Program-made: the position numbers and the translations under genes
Source: Oscillochloris sp. ZM17-4
GTDB taxonomy: Bacteria; Chloroflexota; Chloroflexia; Chloroflexales; Chloroflexaceae
Assembly (NCBI RefSeq): GCF_019599295.1
Contig: NZ_JAIEWN010000011.1
Span: forward strand, 18,205-62,621
Length of the DNA stretch: 44,417 bases
Direction: 5' to 3'
Shown here: positions 4,158 to 42,103 of the stretch, piece by piece
Layout of the letters: every line of letters starts with the position of its first letter
Position numbering within the stretch: position 1 is the stretch's first letter
The notes under the pieces: generated by a model
What the model saw: only the letters and a program-made list of their open reading frames with translations
Database searches by the model: none
What the model was told of the DNA's origin: nothing

Positions 4158-4208
4158 GTTGTTTTGGCCAACATGGCCAGCGAAGCTGGCCATGTTGGCC
4201 AAAACAAC
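4158..4208. repeat. Perfect 51-bp palindrome centred on GCGAAGC
   Basis: Two perfectly complementary 24-bp arms flank the triplet GAA (4182-4184), so the tip reads GCGAAGC, the sequence of a known exceptionally stable DNA mini-hairpin. It lies upstream of the ComB-like gene and of the response regulator. It is followed by a second small hairpin (agggcggcagccct) and the string gccctaaag, which also follows the similar palindrome at 38381. Confidence 0.9.
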
Positions 4209-10377: not shown

Positions 10378-13659
<3,282 letters not shown>

Positions 13660-13687
13660 GTAGGGACACAGCGCGCTGCGTCCCTAC
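13660..13687. terminator. Bidirectional terminator hairpin between kinase and J-domain genes
   Basis: Arms GTAGGGAC and GTCCCTAC with an inner AGCGCGCT palindrome. It begins directly after the kinase TGA. The stop codon of the opposing J-domain gene (TAG, complement at 13684-13686) lies inside the arm. There is no T-run, so termination could be intrinsic-like or serve transcript end protection. Confidence 0.65.
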
Positions 13688-18817: not shown

Positions 18818-18862
18818 AACGCAGCGCGCGAGCGGGAGAGTCTCCCGCTCGCGCGCTGCGTT
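18818..18862. terminator. Bidirectional terminator, perfect 22-bp arms
   Basis: Arms starting AACGCAGCGCGCGAG and ending CTCGCGCGCTGCGTT meet around a single G at 18840, between the convergent cyclase and subtilase genes (7 bp after the cyclase stop, 25 bp from the subtilase stop). It is a very stable GC-rich hairpin without a T-tract. Confidence 0.75.
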
Positions 18863-23534: not shown

Positions 23535-23607
23535 GTAGGGCCGAAGCATTCGCACCGGATGAATCTGCGTGTCGCACATGCATGGGGTGCGAATGCTTCG
23601 GCCCTAC
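23535..23607. repeat. Inverted repeat, perfect 22-bp arms
   Basis: GTAGGGCCGAAGCATTCGCACC (23535-23556, 22 bp) pairs with its complement at 23586-23607 across a 29-bp loop. Its last base abuts the 40-bp palindrome at 23608-23647. Confidence 0.85.
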
Positions 23608-23647
23608 CAGCGGCCGTAGGGCGGCGCGCGCCGCCCTACGGCCGCTG
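23608..23647. terminator. 40-bp perfect palindrome overlapping the stop codon of the alpha/beta hydrolase
   Basis: A perfect palindrome with 20-bp arms (CAGCGGCCGTAGGGCGGCGC and complement). The TAG stop of the minus-strand hydrolase (23636-23638) is part of the arm. It has no T-run, but a stem of this GC content should block transcription or protect the mRNA 3' end. 23333-23534 upstream holds only the promoter region of the GAF gene and no gene. Confidence 0.8.
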
Positions 23648-24561: not shown

Positions 24562-26466
24562 CTACGCCGCAGGCGCGGGCATGGAGCGCACCTCCTCGCG
24601 GATCGACTCGGCGTCCCAGCCGGAGTCGCGCGTCAGGGCGGGCGCATCGCGGTCGGCCTGCATCTGCCGCTCCAGTGCCTCGATCCGCTCGCGGGCCATG
24701 CTGACATAGCCGGCCTTGTCATCGTCCCGGCCGGTCAGCTCGCGCAGTGCCGCCTCCTCGTGGTGGCGAAACGCCTGGGCCGCGCGCAGGGCGGTGGCGC
24801 CGTGCATGCCCAGCAGGCGCATCACGTCCGCGCCGCTGCGCACGGCGGTGTCGATGTCCTCGCGGTAGACGTGGCTCACCCCGGCGGCGTAGAGCGCGTG
24901 GGTGTCGGGCCAGTCGAAGCTGCGGGCGACGATCGTCAAGTGCGGGAAGTGCGTGCGCGCCGTGTGGACGAGCTCCAGCGTCTTCTCGGGGCTGTCGAGG
25001 GCCAGCACCAGCACGCGGGCCTCGCCGGCCCCCGCCGTCTCTAGCAGGTCGTAGCGCGAGGCGTCGCCATAGTAGACCTTCAGGCCCATGCGGCGCAGCA
25101 GGTCGACGCGGTCGGAGTCGATGTCGAGGACGGTGGAGCCGACCCCGTTGGCCCGCAGCAGGCGGCCGACGGTGGACCCGAAGCTGCCGAACCCGGCGAT
25201 GATCACCGGCGACCGCTCGTTGATCGCGTCGGCCTCGCGCGCATCGCCCCGGAGCGTGCCGACGCGCGGCTGCACGAGGCGCTCGTTGATGATCAGCAGC
25301 AGTGGGGTGAGGGCCATCGAGATGGCCACGGCGGCCACGATCGGGCTGGTGATCGTCGTGTCGAGGACGCCCTGCTGGTTGGCGAAGGAGCAGAGCACAA
25401 AGGCGAACTCGCCCACCTGGGGCAGGGCGAAGGCGAAGAGCAGCCCCTGGTCGAGGCTGAGTTTAAAGGCCCGCGCGAGGCCGAAGAGCACGGCGAACTT
25501 CAGGGCGATGATCGCCAGCACCAGGCCGGCGATCAGCAGGGGCTGGGCCAGGATGAGCGCGAAGTCCACCGACGCCCCCACGGCAATGAAGAAGAGGCCG
25601 AGCAGCAGCCCCTTGAAGGGGTCGATGTCGCTCTCCAGCTCGTGGCGGTACTCGCTGTTGGCCAGCACCACGCCGGCCAGGAAGGTGCCCAGGGCTGGGC
25701 TGAGGCCGACGGCGGTCATCAGCAGGGCGATGCCGATCACCAGCAGCAGCGCGGCGGCGGTGAAGAGCTCGCGCAGGCGGGCGGCGGCGATCGCGCGCAG
25801 GGCCGGGCGCACCAGGAAGCGCCCGGCCAGCACCACCGCCGCCACCGCCCCCAGCACCGCCAGGGTCTGCGCCCAGCCGGGCAGCCCGCCCACCAGCGTC
25901 GTCGCCTCGGCGGCGTGGCCGGCATCCTCCGCGCCGCCGTGGGGCGCGGTGGCAAGCATCGGGAAGAGGGCCAGCATCGGGATGACCGCGATATCCTGGA
26001 AGAGCAGCACGGCGAAGGCGCTCTGGCCGCCCTCGGTCTTCAGGACGCCCTTCTCGGCGAGGGACTGGAGCACGATCGCGGTTGAAGATGGGGCCAGGAT
26101 CATGCCGATGGCCAGGGCCACCTGCCAGCTCATGCCGATGGCCAGGGCCACGCCGGCCACGGCCAGCACGGTCAGCAGCACCTGAAGCCCGCCCAGGCCG
26201 AGGATGGGCGCGCGCAGCCGCCAGAGCAGGGCCGGCTCCAGCTCCAGGCCCACCACGAACAGCATCATCACCACGCCGAACTCGGCGAAGTGCATCACGT
26301 CCTGGCCCTCGGCGCCCACCAGGTGCAGGCCGAAGGGGCCGATCGCGATCCCGGCTAGCAGGTAGCCCAGCACCGAGCCGAGGCCGAGGCGCTTGGCGAT
26401 CGGCACGGCCACCACGGCGGCCGCCAGGTAGATGAAGGCCTGGGCGAGGAAGCTCTCGCTGCTCAT
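24562..26466 (-). CDS. CPA2-family cation:proton antiporter with RCK/TrkA-N domain (KefB/KefC-like)
   Basis: The 634-aa protein has about 12 transmembrane helices in the first 380 residues (Na_H_Exchanger; GYLLAGIAIGPFGL, FGVVMMLFVVGLELEP, GTFLAGVVLANSEYRHELESDIDPFKGLLLGLFFIAVG). From about residue 419 an RCK/TrkA-N nucleotide-binding domain follows (VIIAGFGSFGSTVGRLL; acidic DIDSD after beta-2), then a helical tail. It matches KefB/KefC K+ efflux systems that acidify the cytoplasm during electrophile stress. AGGAGGTG sits about 5 bp before the ATG at 26466. The ATG overlaps the stop of the KefF-like gene (ATGA), so the two are translationally coupled, as in kefFC. The longer upstream frame is read-through of that gene. 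Confidence 0.92.
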   Translation of the reverse strand: MSSESFLAQAFIYLAAAVVAVPIAKRLGLGSVLGYLLAGIAIGPFGLHLVGAEGQDVMHFAEFGVVMMLFVVGLELEPALLWRLRAPILGLGGLQVLLTVLAVAGVALAIGMSWQVALAIGMILAPSSTAIVLQSLAEKGVLKTEGGQSAFAVLLFQDIAVIPMLALFPMLATAPHGGAEDAGHAAEATTLVGGLPGWAQTLAVLGAVAAVVLAGRFLVRPALRAIAAARLRELFTAAALLLVIGIALLMTAVGLSPALGTFLAGVVLANSEYRHELESDIDPFKGLLLGLFFIAVGASVDFALILAQPLLIAGLVLAIIALKFAVLFGLARAFKLSLDQGLLFAFALPQVGEFAFVLCSFANQQGVLDTTITSPIVAAVAISMALTPLLLIINERLVQPRVGTLRGDAREADAINERSPVIIAGFGSFGSTVGRLLRANGVGSTVLDIDSDRVDLLRRMGLKVYYGDASRYDLLETAGAGEARVLVLALDSPEKTLELVHTARTHFPHLTIVARSFDWPDTHALYAAGVSHVYREDIDTAVRSGADVMRLLGMHGATALRAAQAFRHHEEAALRELTGRDDDKAGYVSMARERIEALERQMQADRDAPALTRDSGWDAESIREEVRSMPAPAA

Positions 26467-27077: not shown

Positions 27078-27190
27078 GGGAGTGGACATGTGAGCATTGA
27101 AAAAGAAGAGCGCCAGATTATATTGATGATACCTGAGAATACTCATATTCGCCCCTGCCCATGTGGGCGGGGCGACGAACGGCGAACGAC

Positions 27191-28459
<1,269 letters not shown>

Positions 28460-28462
<3 letters not shown>

Positions 28463-28503
28463 GGGCGTAGCAGCGCAGCGCTGCTACGCCCCCGCCGTCC
28501 CTA
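28460..28503. terminator. Bidirectional terminator carrying both stop codons
   Basis: GGGCGTAGCAGCG and its complement (28463-28475, 28479-28491) pair around CAG directly after the TAA of the amine oxidase. The TAG stop of the convergent M42 peptidase (28501-28503) is 9 bp beyond and continues in the same GGGACGGCGGGGGCG context. Confidence 0.7.
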
Positions 28504-29562
28504 CGCCGCCGGGATGAACTCGTCGGCGCTGGAGATGCTGCGCACGAAGGCGGCGATCAGGCGGGCGGCGGCCGCCACATCGGCCATATCCACCATCTCG
28601 TTGGGCGAGTGCATGTAGCGGTTGGGGATGGACACGACCCCGGTGGCCACGCCGCCGCGGGCCTTGTGGATGGCGTCGGCGTCGGTGCCGGTGTAGCGCG
28701 GGGAGATCTGCAGGCTGTAGGCGATCCCCTCACGCTCGGCGACCTCGACCAGGCGCGCGTAGACCAGCGGGCTGTTGGCCGAGCCGCGCGAGAGCACCGG
28801 GCCGCCGCCCAGCTTCACATCGCCGTACTGCTGCTTGCTGGACTCGGGGTGGTCGGTGGCGAAGGTCACATCCACGGCGATCGCCACCTGCGGGTCGAAG
28901 CTGAAGGCGGCGGAGGCGGCCCCGGCGAAGGTGATCTCCTCCTGGGCGGTGGCCACGGCGGCCACGCTGGCGGCGGGGCGATCCTGGCTGAGCAGGCGCA
29001 GGGCCTCCAGCACCGTGAACGCGCCGATACGGTTGTCGAGCGCGCGGCTGACGATGCGGCCGTGGGGCAGCTCGTAGAGCGGCGCGTCGATCACGCCGAC
29101 GCAGCCGACCCGCACACGCTCTAGCGCCTCGTCGCGGCTATCGACGCCGATGTCGATCCACATGCGCTCGATCGTGCTGGCCTGGCCGCGCTCATCGGGC
29201 TTGAGCAGGTGGATGGGCTTCTTGCCGATCACGCCGATCACCTCGCCGGCGTGGCCGAGCAGGCGCACCCGCTGGGCCACCAGCACCTGGGCGTCCCAGC
29301 CGCCGATCGTGGAGAAGGAGAGGTAGCCGCCCTCATCGATATAGCTGACCATCAGGCCGATCTCGTCGATATGGCCAGCCAGCAGCACCCGCGGCCCGGC
29401 CCCCTCGATCAGCGCGTAGCTGTTGCCGCCCACATCGGTAGAGACTCTATCGGCGAAGCCCTTCGCCTCGTCGCGCCAGACCTTCGCCGCCGCCGCCTCA
29501 TCGCCCGAGGGGCCGGGGGTGCCCAGCAGCCGCTTCAGGAATGTCATGCGTAACTCATCCAT
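28501..29562 (-). CDS. M42-family metallo-aminopeptidase (glutamyl aminopeptidase/FrvX type)
   Basis: The 353-aa protein has LLGTPGPSGDE at the N-terminus, the first zinc site LLAGHIDEIG (His64, Asp66), the bridging Asp in SRALDNRIGAFTVLEAL, the catalytic Glu pair in ATAQEEITFAGA, an Asp in AIAVDVTFATDHPE and the last His in SIPNRYMHSPNEMVD. All are expected for a di-zinc M42 peptidase, usually a 12-subunit tetrahedral cytosolic enzyme that trims peptides. AGGAG lies 10 bp before the ATG; an alternative ATG 15 bp in would also work. It is divergent from nadK. Its substrate class (acidic or neutral residues) cannot be read from the sequence. Confidence 0.92.
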   Translation of the reverse strand: MDELRMTFLKRLLGTPGPSGDEAAAAKVWRDEAKGFADRVSTDVGGNSYALIEGAGPRVLLAGHIDEIGLMVSYIDEGGYLSFSTIGGWDAQVLVAQRVRLLGHAGEVIGVIGKKPIHLLKPDERGQASTIERMWIDIGVDSRDEALERVRVGCVGVIDAPLYELPHGRIVSRALDNRIGAFTVLEALRLLSQDRPAASVAAVATAQEEITFAGAASAAFSFDPQVAIAVDVTFATDHPESSKQQYGDVKLGGGPVLSRGSANSPLVYARLVEVAEREGIAYSLQISPRYTGTDADAIHKARGGVATGVVSIPNRYMHSPNEMVDMADVAAAARLIAAFVRSISSADEFIPAA

Positions 29563-30625: not shown

Positions 30626-30816
30626 TGGCAATACCGCAGAAGTCACGCGGTGACCTGACCGCGCCCGGCCCGTAAACGGGCGGGCTTAGGGTTTGCGAAG
30701 GCCGCCTGCGCGGCCTCAGACAGGCCGCGCAGGCGGCCTTCGCAGAACCGTAGCCGGGGGCTTCAGCCCCCCGGCGGGCGATGCCCCACCGCGTGACTTC
30801 TGCGGTATTGCCAAAA
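30626..30816. repeat. Palindromic MITE-like element C with 28-bp perfect terminal repeats
   Basis: It starts ttggcaataccgcagaagtc (28-bp left terminal repeat) and ends with the exact complement just before aagcgtc. Inside are two facing hairpins built on ggccgcctgcgcggcc, a ggcttcagccccc hairpin and the gcccgtaaacgggc hairpin. It has no ORF. It fills the 307-bp gap between nadK and the protein kinase except for the kinase promoter. Confidence 0.85.
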
Positions 30817-33639: not shown

Positions 33640-33830
33640 TAGAGGGTGTGACGCATGGTTCTGCAACGGTGCCATGGCGGGCGGCTGAATCCGCGTCGCC
33701 GGGGCGCTGCGCGCCGAGCGTCGTCCTGCGCCGACGCCGGAACCGCCCGCGAAGGCGGGCGGGCGGACGCAGGCCCCCCCGGCGCGGCTTCGGCCGCCCG
33801 CCCACATAAGACTATACGTCGCACCCACAG
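33640..33830. repeat. Palindromic MITE-like element D
   Basis: Imperfect terminal repeats (gggtgtgacg at the left, cgtcgcaccc at the right) enclose a core with gcgggcggctgaatccgcg, gccgacgcc, ccgcccgcgaaggcgggcgg and ggcgcggcttcggccgcc. The right end atacgtcgcaccc is shared with element F at 15199-15211. It lies directly upstream of the beta-lactamase-like gene, occupying its promoter region. Confidence 0.65.
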
Positions 33831-33844
33831 TAGAGAGGCCACCC

Positions 33845-34645
33845 ATGTCCACCCCCGACCTCGTCGAGTCGCTCGCCCACGAGGCGGGCGGACAGATCGC
33901 CTTCGCCTTCCACGACCTGCAGACCGGCATCTGGGCACGCCACCGCGCCGACGAGCGCGTGCCCACGGCCAGCGTGATCAAGCTGCCAATGCTTGTCCAC
34001 ATCGCCCTGGCCGTCGACGAGGGGGCGCTCAGATGGGACGAGCCGATCACCCTGGCTGAAGCCGTCAAGGTTGCCGGCTCCGGCATCCTCAAGGAGCTGG
34101 GCGCCGGGCTCAGCCTCAGCCTGCGTGACCTCTGCCTGCTGATGACCGCCCTCTCCGACAACACCGCTACCAACATGCTGATCGACCGGGTCGGCATCGA
34201 GGCGATCAACGCCCGCGCCCAGGCCCTCGGCATGGCTCAGACCCGCCTGCTGCGCCGCGCTTTCAGCCCCGACACCCCGGCGAGCATCCCTTTCGGCCTC
34301 GGCGTCACCACCGCCGACGAGATGGCCGGCCTGCTGGTCAAGATCGCCCGGCGCCAGCTCGGCGACGGCGCGGCCGCCGACACAGTGCGGGACATCCTGG
34401 CCACCCAGCAAGACCGCGCCGGCATCCCGCGCATGCTGCCCGAGGGCTGGGCCTACGCCGGCAAGACCGGTGCGGTTGAGGCGCTGCGCGCCGACGCCGG
34501 GGTCATCACCGCGCCCGACGGCCGGCGCTTTGTGCTGGCCGCCTTCTGCGCCAGCATGCCCATAGTCGACTGGACGCCCGACAACCCCGGCCTGCTCGCC
34601 ATCGCCCGCCTGGCCCAGGCGCTGCTCATCCCCGACGAGGTGTAA
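33845..34645 (+). CDS. Class A beta-lactamase-like serine hydrolase without the Glu166 motif
   Basis: The 266-aa protein shows the class A fold signatures SVIK (Ser43, Lys46), SDN (104-106) and KTG (207-209). The omega-loop ExxLN motif that supplies the deacylating Glu166 is absent: the corresponding stretch reads RRAFSPDTPASIPFGLGVTTADEM. No signal peptide is seen, so it appears cytoplasmic. With no Glu166 it is more likely an acyl-enzyme-forming hydrolase or peptidase than an antibiotic-degrading enzyme; real substrate unknown. The start has AGAGAGGCC upstream. Three tandem hairpin repeats begin at its stop codon. Confidence 0.85.
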   Translation: MSTPDLVESLAHEAGGQIAFAFHDLQTGIWARHRADERVPTASVIKLPMLVHIALAVDEGALRWDEPITLAEAVKVAGSGILKELGAGLSLSLRDLCLLMTALSDNTATNMLIDRVGIEAINARAQALGMAQTRLLRRAFSPDTPASIPFGLGVTTADEMAGLLVKIARRQLGDGAAADTVRDILATQQDRAGIPRMLPEGWAYAGKTGAVEALRADAGVITAPDGRRFVLAAFCASMPIVDWTPDNPGLLAIARLAQALLIPDEV

Positions 34646-34785
34646 GGGCGCAGCAGCGCGGCGCTGCGCGCCCCGACGGGTGCCACCAGTAAGGGCGCAG
34701 CAGCGCGGCGCTGCTGCGCCCCGACGGGTGCCACCAGTAAGGGCGCAGCAGCGCGGCGCTGCTGCGCCCCGACGGGTGCCACCAA
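34643..34785. repeat. Three tandem 47-48 bp hairpin repeats starting at a stop codon
   Basis: Copies at 34643-34689, 34690-34737 and 34738-34785. Each starts taagggcgcagcagcgcg, folds with the following gctgctgcgcc, and ends gacgggtgccaccag (last copy ccaccaa). The first copy contains the TAA of the beta-lactamase-like gene and has a slightly changed right arm. They are contiguous with no spacers, so this is not a CRISPR array. Probably an amplified terminator. Confidence 0.9.
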
Positions 34786-34979: not shown

Positions 34980-36986
34980 ATGACCTTTCGTGTTGAGGCA
35001 CCCTATACGCCGACCGGCGACCAGCCCGAGGCGATCCGAAAGCTGGTGGAGGGCCTGGGCGAGGGCCACCGCCACCAGACCCTGCTGGGGGCCACGGCTA
35101 CCGGTAAGACGGCCGTCATGGCCTGGATCTTCGAGCAGGTCAAGCGCCCGACCCTGGTGCTCGCCCATAACAAGACGCTGGTCTCCCAGCTCTGGGCCGA
35201 GTTCCGCGACTTCCTGCCCGACGCCGCCGTCGAGATGTTCATCTCCTACTACGATGAGTACACCCCTGAGGCCTACGTGCCCAGCAAGGACCTGTACATC
35301 GAGAAGGAGGCCAGCATCAATGAGGAGATCGACCGGCTGCGCCACGCCGCCACCCAGGCTCTCTTCACCCGCCGCGACGTGCTGATCGTCGCCTCGGTCT
35401 CGGCGATCTTCGGCCTCGGCTCGCCCCAGGACTACGGCCAGGTGGTCATCCCCATCCGCGCCGGCGAGGTGCGCAACCGCGACAAGCTGCTGCGCCAGCT
35501 GATCGACCTGCAGTTCGAGCGCAACGACATCGACTTCCACCGCGGCACCTTCCGCGTCCGCGGCGATACCCTCGACATCATGCCGGCCAACAGCGAGACA
35601 GCCGTGCGCGTCGAGTTCTGGGGCGACGATGTCGAGCGGATCGTCGAGCTCGACCCGCTCACCGGCGAGATCCTGCTCACCCGCACCGCCGTGGACATCT
35701 ACCCGGCCAAGCACTTCGTCACCACCAAGGATAAGCTCGCCGGCGCCGTGCGCAGCATCCAGGACGAGCTCGGCGAGCGCCTGCGCGAGCTTGAGGCGAA
35801 CGGCAAGGTCCTGGAGGCCGCCCGCCTCAAGCAGCGCACCATGTACGATCTGGAGATGCTCGGCGAGGTCGGCTACTGCTCCGGCATCGAGAACTACTCG
35901 CGCCACATGGACGGCCGCAGCCCCGGACAGACGCCCTGGACCCTGATCGACTACTTCCCCGACGACTTCCTGCTCTTCGTCGACGAGAGCCACATCAGCC
36001 TGCCCCAGGTGCGCGGCATGTATAAGGGCGACCGCTCGCGCAAGGAGACGCTGGTCGACTTCGGCTTCCGCCTGCCCTCGGCCCTCGACAACCGGCCCAT
36101 GCACTTCGAGGAGTTCGAGGAGCATATCTACCATGCGATCTATGTCTCGGCCACCCCCGGCCCCTACGAGCGCGAGCACAGCCAGCAGGTCGTCGAGCAG
36201 ATCATCCGGCCCACCGGCCTAGTCGACCCGATGATCGAGGTGCGCCCCTCCAAGGGCCAGGTGGACGATCTGGTGTCCGAGGTGCGCAAGCGGGTCGAGA
36301 AGGGCCAGCGCGCCCTCGTCACCACCCTCACCAAGCGCATGGCCGAGGATCTGGCCGACTACCTCAAGGAGACCGGAGTGCGCACGATGTACCTGCACTC
36401 CGACATCGACACCATGGAGCGGGTCGAGATCCTGCGCGACCTGCGCCTGGGCGTGTATGACGTGGTGGTCGGCATCAACCTACTGCGCGAGGGCCTCGAC
36501 CTGCCCGAGGTCAGCCTTGTCGCCATCCTCGACGCCGACAAAGAGGGCTTCCTGCGCTCGGAGACCTCGCTCATCCAGATCATCGGCCGGGCCGCCCGCC
36601 ACCTGGAGGGCCGGGTGATCATGTACGCCGACAGCGTCACCAACTCGATGGACGCCGCGATCAAGGAGACCCGCCGCCGCCGCGACATCCAGATCGCCCA
36701 CAACGCGCGCCACAACATCGTCCCGGTGGGCATCTCCAAAGGCGTGCGCGACCTCTCCGACCGCCTGCGCAAGATGGCCGAGGAGCGCGGCGAGTACCAG
36801 GTCAATGGCAAAGGCGCGCAGGCCAAGCCGATCATCGCCGAGATCCCGCGCGACGAGCTGAACAAGCTGATCAAAGACCTGGAGAAGCAGATGAAGCAGG
36901 CCGCCAAAAACCTCGAGTTCGAGAAGGCCGCCGCCCTGCGCGACCAGGTGATGGAGCTGAGGAAGACGCTGGCCCTCGATGCATAA
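34980..36986 (+). CDS. uvrB: UvrB, excinuclease ABC subunit B
   Basis: The 668-aa protein is the damage-verifying helicase-like subunit of nucleotide excision repair. The P-loop is GATATGKT (37-44), unlike the common GVTGSGKT. The beta-hairpin that clamps DNA reads [14 protein letters not shown], with Glu where most UvrBs have the third Tyr of YYDYYQPEAYVP. Helicase motifs include [53 protein letters not shown] and [21 protein letters not shown]-terminal UVR domain (about 628-663) contacts UvrC. Length and order are complete. The ATG has no strong Shine-Dalgarno. uvrA and uvrC are not in the window. Confidence 0.97.
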
Positions 36987-37049
36987 TTGCAGATTGCAGA
37001 TTGCAGATTGAGCTCTGCAATCTGCAATCTGCAATCTGCAATCTACAAT
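36986..37049. repeat. ATTGCAG heptamer palindrome between uvrB and the NERD gene
   Basis: Three ATTGCAG heptamers and a fourth partial one (36986-37013) are followed by four TCTGCAA heptamers and TCTACAA, giving a hairpin of about 60 bp. It begins at the last base of the uvrB stop and ends 7 bp before the NERD start, so it is the entire intergenic region and leaves no room for an independent promoter. Confidence 0.9.
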
Positions 37050-38380: not shown

Positions 38381-38435
38381 GCATAGCAAAGGGTGAAATG
38401 GCTAGCGAAGCTAGCCATTTCACCCTTTGCTATGC
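38381..38435. repeat. Perfect 55-bp palindrome centred on GCGAAGC
   Basis: Two 26-bp arms (gcatagcaaagggtgaaatg at the outer end) flank GAA (38407-38409). The tip reads GCTAGCGAAGCTAGC. A second hairpin, GGGCGAAAGCCC, follows at 38445-38456, then taaag. It lies between the convergent NERD and thioesterase genes and starts 1 bp after the NERD stop, so it could terminate both. Same design as 4158-4208. Confidence 0.9.
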
Positions 38436-38892: not shown

Positions 38893-38929
38893 GTAAGGGC
38901 GCAGCAGCGCGGCGCTGCTGCGCCCTTAC
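38893..38929. terminator. 37-bp hairpin between nitroreductase and thioesterase genes
   Basis: Perfect 17-bp arms GTAAGGGCGCAGCAGCG and complement flank CGG. The TAA stop of the nitroreductase gene (38926-38928) is part of the arm. The sequence is the same unit as the triple repeat at 34643. Confidence 0.8.
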
Positions 38930-39765: not shown

Positions 39766-42103
39766 ACCCTGAATCGTACCACAACCTGCGCCGCCTCCCG
39801 GCGGAATTTTTGTTAGCGCGAATAAGTCCTGGGTTAACCTGGGAGCGTCGGTGGCCCCGCTCGCGACTGAAGTCGCAGCGCGGGGGCCTCCGGCCAACGA
39901 ACACGAAGTCCACTGTCACGGTGGCCGGCGCGGGGTTGGGGTTGCTCACGCACAGGTAGTAGCTGGCGTCGCGGGTGCGCCCGTCCACGAAGGCCCAGCT
40001 GTAGCCGGGGGCCAGCGCCCCGGCGCCCACCGATCCGGCCGCGCCGCCGTTGAAGGTCATGGCCCGCTCCACGGCCACCGGCCGGTCGGCAGTCACCTCA
40101 GTAGAGACGCCGAGGTCGGGAACAACATCGTTGACGTTAATCACGAGCTGGGAGCGCGGCGGGATGGCGTAGCGCCGCACGTCGCTGGCGCCGTCCGGCC
40201 CCATAAAGACGGCCTCGGTGTTGGCCGGCTGGTCGTTGGGGTTAAGCACCAGCAGGCGCATCTGGAAGCCATTCTCGGTGGTGCCCTCGGCAAAAAGCCA
40301 GCGCCGCGAGAGCGTGTCGATGCCGCGCCCGGTGTGCAGGCCGGGCGCCGCGCCCTCGGGGCTGCGTCCGAAGCGCATGGTGCGCTCGACGGCGATCGGC
40401 TGGGCGGCGATCACCCGCGCGCCGAAGCTGGCGTCCGGCAGGACATCGTGTACCGCCACCACTAGCCGGTCGCGCGCGCTAATCTGCACCTTCTGCTCGA
40501 ACTGCGTGCCGTCGCTGCGCATGTAGGTGATCGTCGCCGAGACGGCGGCGGCCTGGGGGTTGAAGAGGATCAGGTAGGTGCTGTTGGTGCCCTCGGTGGA
40601 CCCCTCGGCGAAGTACCAGATCCGCGAGAGCCGGCTGATGCCGGGGCCGCCGTCCACATCGGTGGTCAGGTTCATGCTGCGCTCGGCCAGGAGCGGCGCG
40701 CTCGACTCGACGATGGCTGGCAGCGAGGTGGTGCCCGAGATCACATCGTTGAGCACGAGGTCGCTGCGTGCGCCGGCGGGCACGCCGACGATCCGGGTCA
40801 GCGGCGGCTCGCCGGGGGGGATGAGCGTGACCTTCGCGTCGGCCTGGGCGCCGGAGAGGTTGAGAAAGCTCAGCCGCTCGCTGTAGTCGGCCACATTCCC
40901 CTCGGCGAAGTACCAGCGCGCCCGCACCGTCGACTGGTCGGCCAGGCTGCGGATCTGCGGCAGCAGGGCGAGCGTGGCCTGGGCCGGGTCGGCTGCGGCT
41001 GGGTCAGCCTCGCTGTGGGCGGCGATGTTGGGGCGCTGGGCGCGCGCGTCGCCCACGAGTACGATGTGCTGCCCGGCAGGCGCGATGTCGTAGGCCTGGC
41101 CGAGCCAGGCCAGCAGGCCGATCAGGGCGCCCTGGGCCTCGGCGCTCGGCGCGGCACCCTGGGGGGCGACCAGCGCGATATGGATGGTCACATCGCCGCC
41201 CGAGAGCCGGCCCACGTCCGAGGTCGGCCCGCCAAGGCGGCCCTCGTAGAGGTTGCCGCCGGCGTCGATCACATAGTGGTAGGCCAGATCGTCCCAGCCC
41301 AGCACATCGGTCTGGTAGGCCAGCAGGGCGCGCATCAGGTCGAGGCTGCTTTCGGACGGGTCAGCGGCGATCTGGTGGATGATGATGCCGCGCGGGTCGC
41401 GCCGGGCGGGCTGGGCGGCCGCGACGGTGCCGCTCCAGTCGCTGCGACCGATCAGCACCGGCCGCTGGGTCAGCGTCTCCCGGCCGGAGAGGATCGGGCG
41501 GCGCGGCAGGCCGGCGGCCAGGGTCGGCGTGGGCTGGGCGGTGCGCAGATAGCTCACCGTCACCGCGCTGAGCGTGGCCGAGGCGCGGGCGACCTGGCTG
41601 GTCAGGCTGGCCCGCAGCTGGAGGTAGGCGCTGTCGGCGGGGAAGGCGAGGACATCGGCGGTGGCCAGGGCGCCGTCGTCGGCCTGGGAGCGGGCGTCGC
41701 CGCTCTCAAGGGGCTGCCAGGCGCCCCAGCCATCGTCGGGGTTGCCCCCGGCGGGCGGCGGCGGGGTGGCGCGGGCGCGCAGCTCAAGCCGCACGCCGGT
41801 GCCCTCGATCAGGTCGGCGTGCCAGACGGCGCCGGCCGCGTTGAAGGCGAAGGCCGTGGCGAAGGGCGCCGAGAGGAACGCCCCGGCGACCTGGTCCTCG
41901 GCGAGGCGCAGCTCGCCCCCGGCGTTGTTGGTGATCAGCAGGCCGCTCGACGCGCCGGCCTCCCAGTCGGCGACATCGCTCAGCTGCCAGGAGTCCGCCT
42001 TCACCTGCGGGGCCTGCTGCGCGCGGGCGGGCGCGGCGAAGGGGAGCAGGGCGGCGACGAGCACGAGGGCGAGGAGGTGGGGGAGGGCGGCGCTTCGGCT
42101 CAT
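39752..42103 (-). CDS. Secreted PGRP/amidase-like protein with WYFAEG repeats and an altered C-terminus
   Basis: The 783-aa protein has a signal peptide (1-28, ending ARA-QQ), a beta-rich N-terminal region (about 35-180) and a type-2 amidase/PGRP-like domain (about 205-380) with RPVLIGRSDWSG, GIIIHQ (His243) and DDLAYHYVIDAGGNLYEGRLGG. The CPG zinc-ligand block is degenerate (AAHSEADPAAADPAQ: Cys replaced by Asp). Four repeats follow with the key RWYFAEGN, IWYFAEGS, RWLFAEGT and SWAFVDGR, at about 394-480, 490-575, 585-670 and 690-735. The fourth stops early: the last 48 residues are encoded by repeat element G and flanking DNA and look non-native. AAGGAAG precedes the ATG at 42103. Peptidoglycan binding or remodelling is the likely role; catalysis is uncertain. 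Confidence 0.85.
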   Translation of the reverse strand: MSRSAALPHLLALVLVAALLPFAAPARAQQAPQVKADSWQLSDVADWEAGASSGLLITNNAGGELRLAEDQVAGAFLSAPFATAFAFNAAGAVWHADLIEGTGVRLELRARATPPPPAGGNPDDGWGAWQPLESGDARSQADDGALATADVLAFPADSAYLQLRASLTSQVARASATLSAVTVSYLRTAQPTPTLAAGLPRRPILSGRETLTQRPVLIGRSDWSGTVAAAQPARRDPRGIIIHQIAADPSESSLDLMRALLAYQTDVLGWDDLAYHYVIDAGGNLYEGRLGGPTSDVGRLSGGDVTIHIALVAPQGAAPSAEAQGALIGLLAWLGQAYDIAPAGQHIVLVGDARAQRPNIAAHSEADPAAADPAQATLALLPQIRSLADQSTVRARWYFAEGNVADYSERLSFLNLSGAQADAKVTLIPPGEPPLTRIVGVPAGARSDLVLNDVISGTTSLPAIVESSAPLLAERSMNLTTDVDGGPGISRLSRIWYFAEGSTEGTNSTYLILFNPQAAAVSATITYMRSDGTQFEQKVQISARDRLVVAVHDVLPDASFGARVIAAQPIAVERTMRFGRSPEGAAPGLHTGRGIDTLSRRWLFAEGTTENGFQMRLLVLNPNDQPANTEAVFMGPDGASDVRRYAIPPRSQLVINVNDVVPDLGVSTEVTADRPVAVERAMTFNGGAAGSVGAGALAPGYSWAFVDGRTRDASYYLCVSNPNPAPATVTVDFVFVGRRPPRCDFSRERGHRRSQVNPGLIRANKNSAGRRRRLWYDSGYDNY
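39812..39905. repeat. Repeat element G inside the 3' end of the amidase-like gene
   Basis: It begins gttagcgcgaata, the same left end as element F (15109-15121). It contains gctcgcgactgaagtcgcagc and gggggcctccggcc, the core pattern of elements A-D. The amidase-like frame runs through it and departs from its repeat family exactly here. Confidence 0.65.

Follow-up and report, generated by a model that had tools for sequence, protein, structure and literature searches.

In a stretch of DNA from Oscillochloris sp. ZM17-4, several genes seem to end just where a hairpin begins, and the question is what supplies their stop codons. The window, meaning the whole stretch of 44,417 nucleotides that was analyzed, is C13:18205-62621 of a 6.69-Mb draft genome, labelled G000 below. 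An initial annotation had proposed that at least six genes end with the stop codon as the first bases of a hairpin arm, in a pattern TA(A/G)GG(G/A)CG. It offered two interpretations: an element that targets TAA/TAG ends or a coupling of translation termination with folding of the transcript end.

Gene ends in the window

All six stop codons are present where they had been placed, and Pfam bears out the six gene names (amine oxidase, M42, DnaJ domain, alpha/beta hydrolase, beta-lactamase family and nitroreductase). The repeats and stops at these ends are collected in Table 1. The proposed pattern is kept less strictly, since the alpha/beta hydrolase end (TAGGGCGG) is not a strict fit. The bare 8-mer TA(A/G)GG(G/A)CG is only weakly above chance in the window, with 11 matches where 4.5 would be expected and at least as many in 1 of 100 shuffles. 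The motif GTARGG (R is A or G) ends 7 of the 27 complete genes, namely the same six and the gene ending at 24562. As to the position of the stop in the hairpin, the claim stands for three of the six: in the predicted RNA fold, the stops of the DnaJ-domain, hydrolase and nitroreductase genes (13684, 23636 and 38926) are paired and form the first bases of an arm. The amine oxidase stop is unpaired, and the stem starts right behind it; the stop of the beta-lactamase-family gene is mostly unpaired, with the stem starting just behind; and the M42 stop is nine bases outside its stem. The observation is thus confirmed in part: the six stops are real and their pattern extends genome-wide, as described below, while the placement in a hairpin arm holds for some of them.

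Table 1. Repeats and stop codons at gene ends of the window, in window coordinates.
Feature	Position	Strand	Relation to gene end
One-ended GTAAGGGCG palindrome	28459..28491	+	Holds the amine oxidase stop (TAA 28460-28462), followed by a perfect stem 28463-28491
GTAGGGACG	28496..28504	-	Holds the M42 peptidase stop (TAG 28501-28503), which is outside the stem
Two-ended 28-bp palindrome, one mismatch	13660..13687	-	Gives the DnaJ-domain gene stop 13684-13686
24-bp palindrome GTAGGGCGGCGCGCGCCGCCCTAC	23616..23639	-	Gives the alpha/beta hydrolase stop 23636-23638; palindromy runs into both flanks
73-bp element, GTAGGGCCGAAGCA...TGCTTCGGCCCTAC family	23535..23607	.	Adjoins the 24-bp palindrome 23616..23639
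Three tandem ~48-bp units starting GTAAGGGCGCAGCAGCGCGGCGCTG	34642..34783	+	First unit gives the stop 34643-34645 of the beta-lactamase-family gene
Complete perfect 37-bp palindrome GTAAGGGCGCAGCAGCGCGGCGCTGCTGCGCCCTTAC	38893..38929	-	Gives the nitroreductase stop 38926-38928
GTAGGG-context stop, no hairpin detected	24562..24565	-	Gene 24562-26466

The 28-bp palindrome at the DnaJ-domain gene is also directly preceded by the TGA stop (13657-13659) of a gene on the plus strand. Some of the individual ends can be followed into relatives. The M42 gene has a GTAGGG stop in the same-genus genomes G005 and G002 as well, there standing before other sequence, and lacks it in G003. At the corresponding place, the hydrolase gene of G001, G003 and G004 reads GTAGGG or GTAGGA, and neither is present in G002 and G005. 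The amine oxidase is 51% identical to a Chloroflexi MAG record. Among the matches listed, its gene (27161-28462) has no DNA match between its neighbors in the syntenic stretch of G005, and a 73%-identical match to the gene end sits elsewhere in G005.

The window contains other repeats. A second class of hairpin, at 36986-37042 and 382-471, has arms made of tandem heptamers (e.g., GATTGCA, GTTGAAT, GGGGACA and GATAGCC). Such hairpins are also found at other gene ends in G000 and G005, where some begin at the stop codon, and the heptamers differ at some orthologous sites. Dispersed repeats of ~185, ~130 and ~90 bp are located at 30628-30812, 33672-33801 and 39809-39898; among the matches listed, they have at least several to many copies in G000, and the first two occur in relatives too. 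Long perfect hairpins with arms of 22-26 bp are located at 4158-4208, 18818-18862 and 38381-38435, two of them with GAA triloops.

GTARGG stops and two-ended palindromes in the genus

Genes were called with a home-made hexamer gene finder in a 1.24-Mb sample of G000, which yielded 1019 genes, 1018 of them with enough flanking sequence at the end. Aligning these ends on the stop codon, as the initial annotation had suggested, shows GTA(A/G)GG with its TAA or TAG as the in-frame stop at 126 of 1018; the matching motif for TGA, GTGAGG, occurs at only 8 of 354 TGA stops. The same-genus G005 has 64 GTARGG ends in 620 genes, and two genomes of the same order have 3 in 149 and 1 in 175, so that the genus count of 190 in 1638 compares with 4 in 324 for the same-order genomes (Fisher 2e-11). 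In these Chloroflexota-like bacteria, GTAAGG or GTAGGG marks the end of about every eighth to tenth gene, and the placement of GTARGG at gene ends in G000 is well beyond chance. Stop usage in the G000 sample is TAG 456, TGA 354 and TAA 209 out of 1019. In G005, too, TAG is used more than either of the other stops (284 of 620), unlike in the two same-order genomes (33 of 149 and 42 of 175).

GTARGG starts a scored hairpin at 66 of the 126 ends, and 60 lack one (74 and 52 by a second hairpin method). Since about half of the GTARGG stops are the first bases of a palindromic repeat, small repeats appear to supply many gene ends. Counted over all gene ends, a strong hairpin starts between -20 and +70 of the stop at 356 of 1018, against 4 in a coding control window. 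The initial annotation had taken hairpins at random distances from stops as the outcome that would speak against it. This is borne out partly: the hairpin starts around the stops of G000 are widely spread, yet 30 of them form a spike at -1. A T-run follows 24 of 344 hairpins read from the upstream gene, which is not the pattern of intrinsic terminators. In intergenic regions of 40-600 bp, hairpin density is 5.36/kb between convergent genes, 2.68/kb between tandem genes and 0.65/kb between divergent genes.

The clearest form of the element is a two-ended palindrome, GTARGG...CCYTAC. After merging of overlapping elements (83 to 81 in G000 and 32 to 27 in G005), there are 81 of these in the G000 sample. 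For a 37-bp form, GTAAGGGCGCAGCAGCGCNGCGCTGCTGCGCCCTTAC, a pattern of 32 of the bases is matched exactly at 58 forward and 67 reverse sites in G000; when the pattern is widened slightly and as many as two mismatches are allowed, there are 134 forward and 129 reverse matches. The 37-bp pattern is found in 5 of 31 genomes, all of the same genus, and in none of the 25 genomes outside it; of the five other genus members, four have 3-13 matches per strand and one has none. The GTAGGGCCGAAGCA...TGCTTCGGCCCTAC family, whose exact ends are set by the search pattern used, numbers 105 copies with exact ends in G000, 3 in G003 and 0 in the other four genus members.

The register of these elements with respect to genes is sharply defined. 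Among the 162 ends of the 81 elements, 53 supply the stop of the incoming gene. A further 45 have a stop at most 50 bases before them, 11 have one at 51-300 bases, and 52 face no gene end; one gene reads through an element end in another frame, and 2 elements are inside a gene. The stop-supplying ends form a lone peak, with 53 at offset +1 and otherwise no more than 4 per offset. Finding 53 of 54 in register by random frames has a binomial probability of ~2e-24 against an expectation of one-third, a bias that could come from selection against tails as well as from targeting. G005 replicates the result: of the 54 ends of its 27 elements, 26 supply stops, 0 are read in other frames, 13 have a stop within 50 bases, 2 have one farther away and 13 face no gene end. 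The idea that the hairpins are repeated elements whose own end is often the stop is therefore upheld in both genomes. Since the element is symmetric, one copy can stop two convergent genes, and 11 of 81 palindromes in G000 and 8 of 27 in G005 do so.

The elements are dense between convergent genes and nearly absent between divergent ones. Of the 81 in G000, 43 are in tandem context, 34 convergent, 2 divergent and 2 inside a gene; among intergenic regions of 40-600 bp, the 116 convergent ones have 22 elements, the 447 tandem ones 38 and the 145 divergent ones 2. Direct repeats flanking the element, as a target duplication would leave, are rare in a set of 108 elements (one of 3 bp, two of 4 bp and two of 6 bp). 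Palindromy reaches at least 5 bases into the flanks at 12 of the 108. At two places in G000, C13:69091-69119 and C106:130913-130940, the ten bases that lead up to the stop are identical in both convergent genes, each on its own strand, and the palindromy therefore continues from the element into both genes.

Moving stops and changing stems

Comparison of orthologues in G000 and G005 bears on whether the stop was already in place when the motif arrived. From 487 of the 1018 gene ends with a match, 461 pairs were kept. In 376 pairs without GTARGG on either side, the stop is at the same codon in 305. Where one gene ends in a two-ended element and its partner lacks the motif, the same codon is the stop in 11 of 27 (6 of 18 from the G000 side and 5 of 9 from the G005 side; Fisher p ~1e-5 against the controls), with two-ended defined more loosely than in the register count of 81. 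The stop is within nine bases in 22 of these 27 cases and in 350 of the 376 controls. For all GTARGG ends with a partner lacking the motif, the stop is kept in 18 of 36 (G000) and 19 of 29 (G005), and of all 56 GTARGG ends in G000 with an orthologue, 37 keep the stop position. Where both species have the motif, the stop is common to 19 of 20 pairs, but the stem is often different. Since the stop is kept less often than in the controls, the GTARGG motif often accompanies a moved gene end. This weakens the earlier proposal of an element that targets TAA/TAG ends, and it means that the end of the protein is often altered along with the motif. Of the initial interpretation, then, repeated elements with the stop often as their own end survive, and stop-codon targeting is not supported.

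The stems turn over. At 91 hairpin sites of G000 with both flanks found in G005, the hairpin is conserved at 19, replaced by another hairpin at 40, absent at 30 by a strict threshold that counts imperfect or heptamer-repeat hairpins as absent, and reduced to one arm at 2. No clean empty site for an element was found. The 40 sites with a different hairpin, out of 72 non-conserved, fall within the 35-64% hairpin background of tandem and convergent regions, and so no hotspot is claimed. Fold-back copying of a local arm was also considered. From 329 hairpins entered, an isolated pre-existing arm is present at just 4 of 154 sites (2 of 91 and 2 of 63), which leaves simple snap-back of local sequence unsupported.

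In one family, the middle of the element is hypervariable. Among 18 sampled copies, picked for the same outer end so that outer-end identity is set by the pattern used, identity of the middle stems from copy to copy is 34%, and the two arms of a given copy are 99.4% complementary. Stems that are copy-specific yet self-complementary point to a process at the DNA level. Perfect hairpins in the G000 sample (arm of at least 12, loop of 0-8, not de-duplicated) number 284, of which 131 have a 3-base loop; 113 of these loops read purine-N-A on one strand, and 123 are closed by a C-G pair. In G005, 52 of 167 (likewise not de-duplicated) have a 3-base loop, 42 of them purine-N-A and 46 closed by C-G. 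The C-(purine-N-A)-G triloop is of a kind known for very stable DNA hairpins. A role of the triloop in RNA was considered and set aside: in tandem contexts, purine-N-A is on the mRNA strand in 26, on the template strand in 31 and otherwise placed in 10, so that there is no RNA-strand bias. A literature search on GCGAAGC hairpins showed no matching system among the papers listed.

RAYT-like genes and the origin of the elements

RAYT-like genes give 5 matches at 4 places in G000, and 18 of the 31 genomes have matches. The RAYTs do not include two Pfam Y1 matches in G004 and G005 that are among the strongest; these adjoin a second reading frame, which we take to be TnpB-like. All 10 aligned RAYT-like members match NCBIfam REP_Tyr_transpos, and 2 of the 10 also match transpos_IS200, with the bit scores shown (58.5, 61.8 and 69.4) below the NCBIfam cut-off of 80. 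H81, H83 and Y159 are invariant in the alignment. In a PDB sequence search, E. coli TnpA-REP 4er8 is the sole match at E up to 0.1 (2.7e-5). The fold search returns the HUH-transposase fold, with ISDra2 (IS200/IS605 type) at the best E-value and 4er8 at rank 10. Upstream of the G002 RAYT-like gene, within ~1.1 kb and on one side only, are three two-ended GTAGGG elements. No two-ended element is present in the available flanks of the G000 genes, where the C1 place is partly N and others are at contig ends. Separately, RAYT-like genes of G000 (C128) and G003 (C137), L192 and L158, have a GTAGGGGCGCAGCAG element inside the open frame. Two-ended palindromes, hardly any target duplication and the presence of RAYT-like genes together point to single-strand mobility of the REP type, and we infer that the RAYT-like transposases would be the mobilizing enzymes.

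In REPINs, two inversely oriented copies of a conserved end reportedly enclose a middle that is conserved less, an arrangement also seen here; unlike in REPINs, many copies here have a middle that is close to a perfect palindrome in its own right. GTAG-tagged REPs, in the sections drawn on here of Di Nocera et al. 2013 (PMC3733652) and of Nunvar et al. 2010 (PMC2817692), where REPs are tabulated with their RAYTs, are short palindromes with a GTAG end, located mostly between convergent or unidirectional genes, with termini that often provide a TAG stop, and Chloroflexi are among the hosts. The elements described here resemble them in form and in position behind mostly convergent or tandem genes, in occurring singly or in tandem clusters, in giving TAG stops and in sharing the genome with tyrosine transposases. 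They are high in copy, dispersed and intergenic, and have a 5' tag next to the stem, which is GTAG in several families and GTAA in the 37-bp subfamily. The tag of the published REPs, as those sections describe it, is unpaired and at one end, whereas here 81 elements have a base-paired tag at both ends and one-ended forms occur too (28459-28491). They also differ in having a major subfamily with GTAA, which gives a TAA stop, in that one element can stop two genes, and in the hypervariable middle stems of one family. A RAYT that recognizes GTAG and palindromes is described for the S. maltophilia Group 3 TnpA-REP/REP system (PMC8266576). From the part of that report used here, its REP is a perfect palindrome of 23 nt with an 8-bp stem and a short loop of 3 nt, in which some positions tolerate no change, and binding largely withstands changes to GTAG. 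Here too there are perfect palindromes closed by a short loop, in elements of 24-75 bp. The pattern is real, strong and at the level of the genus, and the elements are a two-ended variant of GTAG-tagged REPs. The stop-supplying effect is already published for other bacteria; the scale and the symmetry here are unusual.

We consider it rather likely that the hairpins are mobile, REP-like repeats with a GTAG or GTAA tag at both ends, and that the stop of the gene is formed by such an end. Starting from the observed sequence, register, context and repeat family, the lack of target duplication and the transposase genes, the course of events would be as follows. An element with GTAGGG or GTAAGGG at one end and the complement at the other, a two-ended form within the GTAG-tagged superfamily, would spread through single-stranded DNA, most likely by the RAYT-like HUH/Y1 transposases encoded in the genus, and would survive mainly right behind genes. 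Where the tag lands at a gene 3' end so as to read xxG-TAR, its TAG or TAA would become the stop. Read in either of the other two frames, the 37-bp element is free of stops; insertions in those frames would therefore add a tail and would presumably be purged. Stems would turn over with loss of the hairpin while GTAGGG stops could persist, which may explain many of the GTARGG stops without one. As part of the RNA, the hairpin probably serves to mark or stabilize the end of the transcript or makes ribosomes slow down at the stop; the coupling of translation termination with transcript-end folding that the initial annotation suggested is plausible as an effect. For comparison, REPs at most 15 nt from a stop are related to ribosome stalling in E. 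coli (PMC12306157), and bacterial inverted repeats are reported to peak 50-80 bp behind stops (PMC13155455). Counting against this explanation are the tag, which pairs with the opposite end where that of the published GTAG REPs is unpaired, the 60 of 126 GTARGG stops without a hairpin, the 11 of 27 that keep the stop position as direct targeting predicts, the sub-cut-off RAYT scores, the rank of ISDra2 above 4er8, the one-sided array in G002, the absence of two-ended elements from the available flanks of the G000 RAYT-like genes and the lack of a clean empty site.

Other explanations account for parts of the same evidence. If an element recognized an existing stop, or GTAR at a gene end, and rebuilt it, the protein end would not change; the lone peak of 53 ends at +1, the 11 of 27 unchanged stops and the recurrence of the M42 and hydrolase GTAGGG/GTAGGA stops before other sequence in several relatives would follow. 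We think this unlikely in view of the 305 of 376 background and of the 45 ends that sit behind an intact stop within 50 bases. A literature search on stop-codon targeting showed no matching system among the papers listed. Alternatively, the hairpins might be resident terminators that evolved in place and are coupled to the stop, their likeness arising from selection or gene conversion in place of transposition. The 356 of 1018 strong hairpins near stops, against 4 in the control window, and the strong depletion between divergent genes fit that account. It is made improbable by the large number of dispersed, near-identical copies, which are scarce or missing in sister genomes, by only 19 of 91 sites being conserved in G005 (the others having a different hairpin, none or one arm) and by T-runs behind just 24 of 344.

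The symmetric GTA...TAC ends could also mark a DDE-type MITE with a TA target duplication, GTA-element-TAC deriving from a GTAC target, and there is a slight excess of 2-bp flank identity (0.13 vs 0.075). With longer flank duplications rare and the G and C outside the TA constant, given the element definition used, this is very improbable. Chance in a GC-rich genome with short intergenic gaps could be entertained for the bare 8-mer, at just ~2.5 times expectation in the window, but the genus counts against those of the order and the frame bias already refute it, leaving it a negligible probability. A doubtful but broader reading is that DNA structure, more than sequence, may spread at gene ends: a constant tag and outer stem, a copy-specific self-complementary middle and the C-(purine-N-A)-G triloop would reflect a single-stranded DNA process that rewrites the 3' borders of genes, with the GTAR stop fixed and stop usage shifted toward TAG. 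That process may be RAYT action together with templated fold-back synthesis or palindrome correction; template switching, for its part, can create and maintain RNA hairpins (PMC8794818).

Under the preferred explanation of mobile two-ended repeats, small palindromic, probably mobile repeats can set the ends of proteins on a broad sample of genes, 66 of 1018 here. One repeat, 28-73 bp long, can be enough to stop two convergent genes, and the turnover of repeats is thereby linked to C-terminal evolution and to stop-codon usage.
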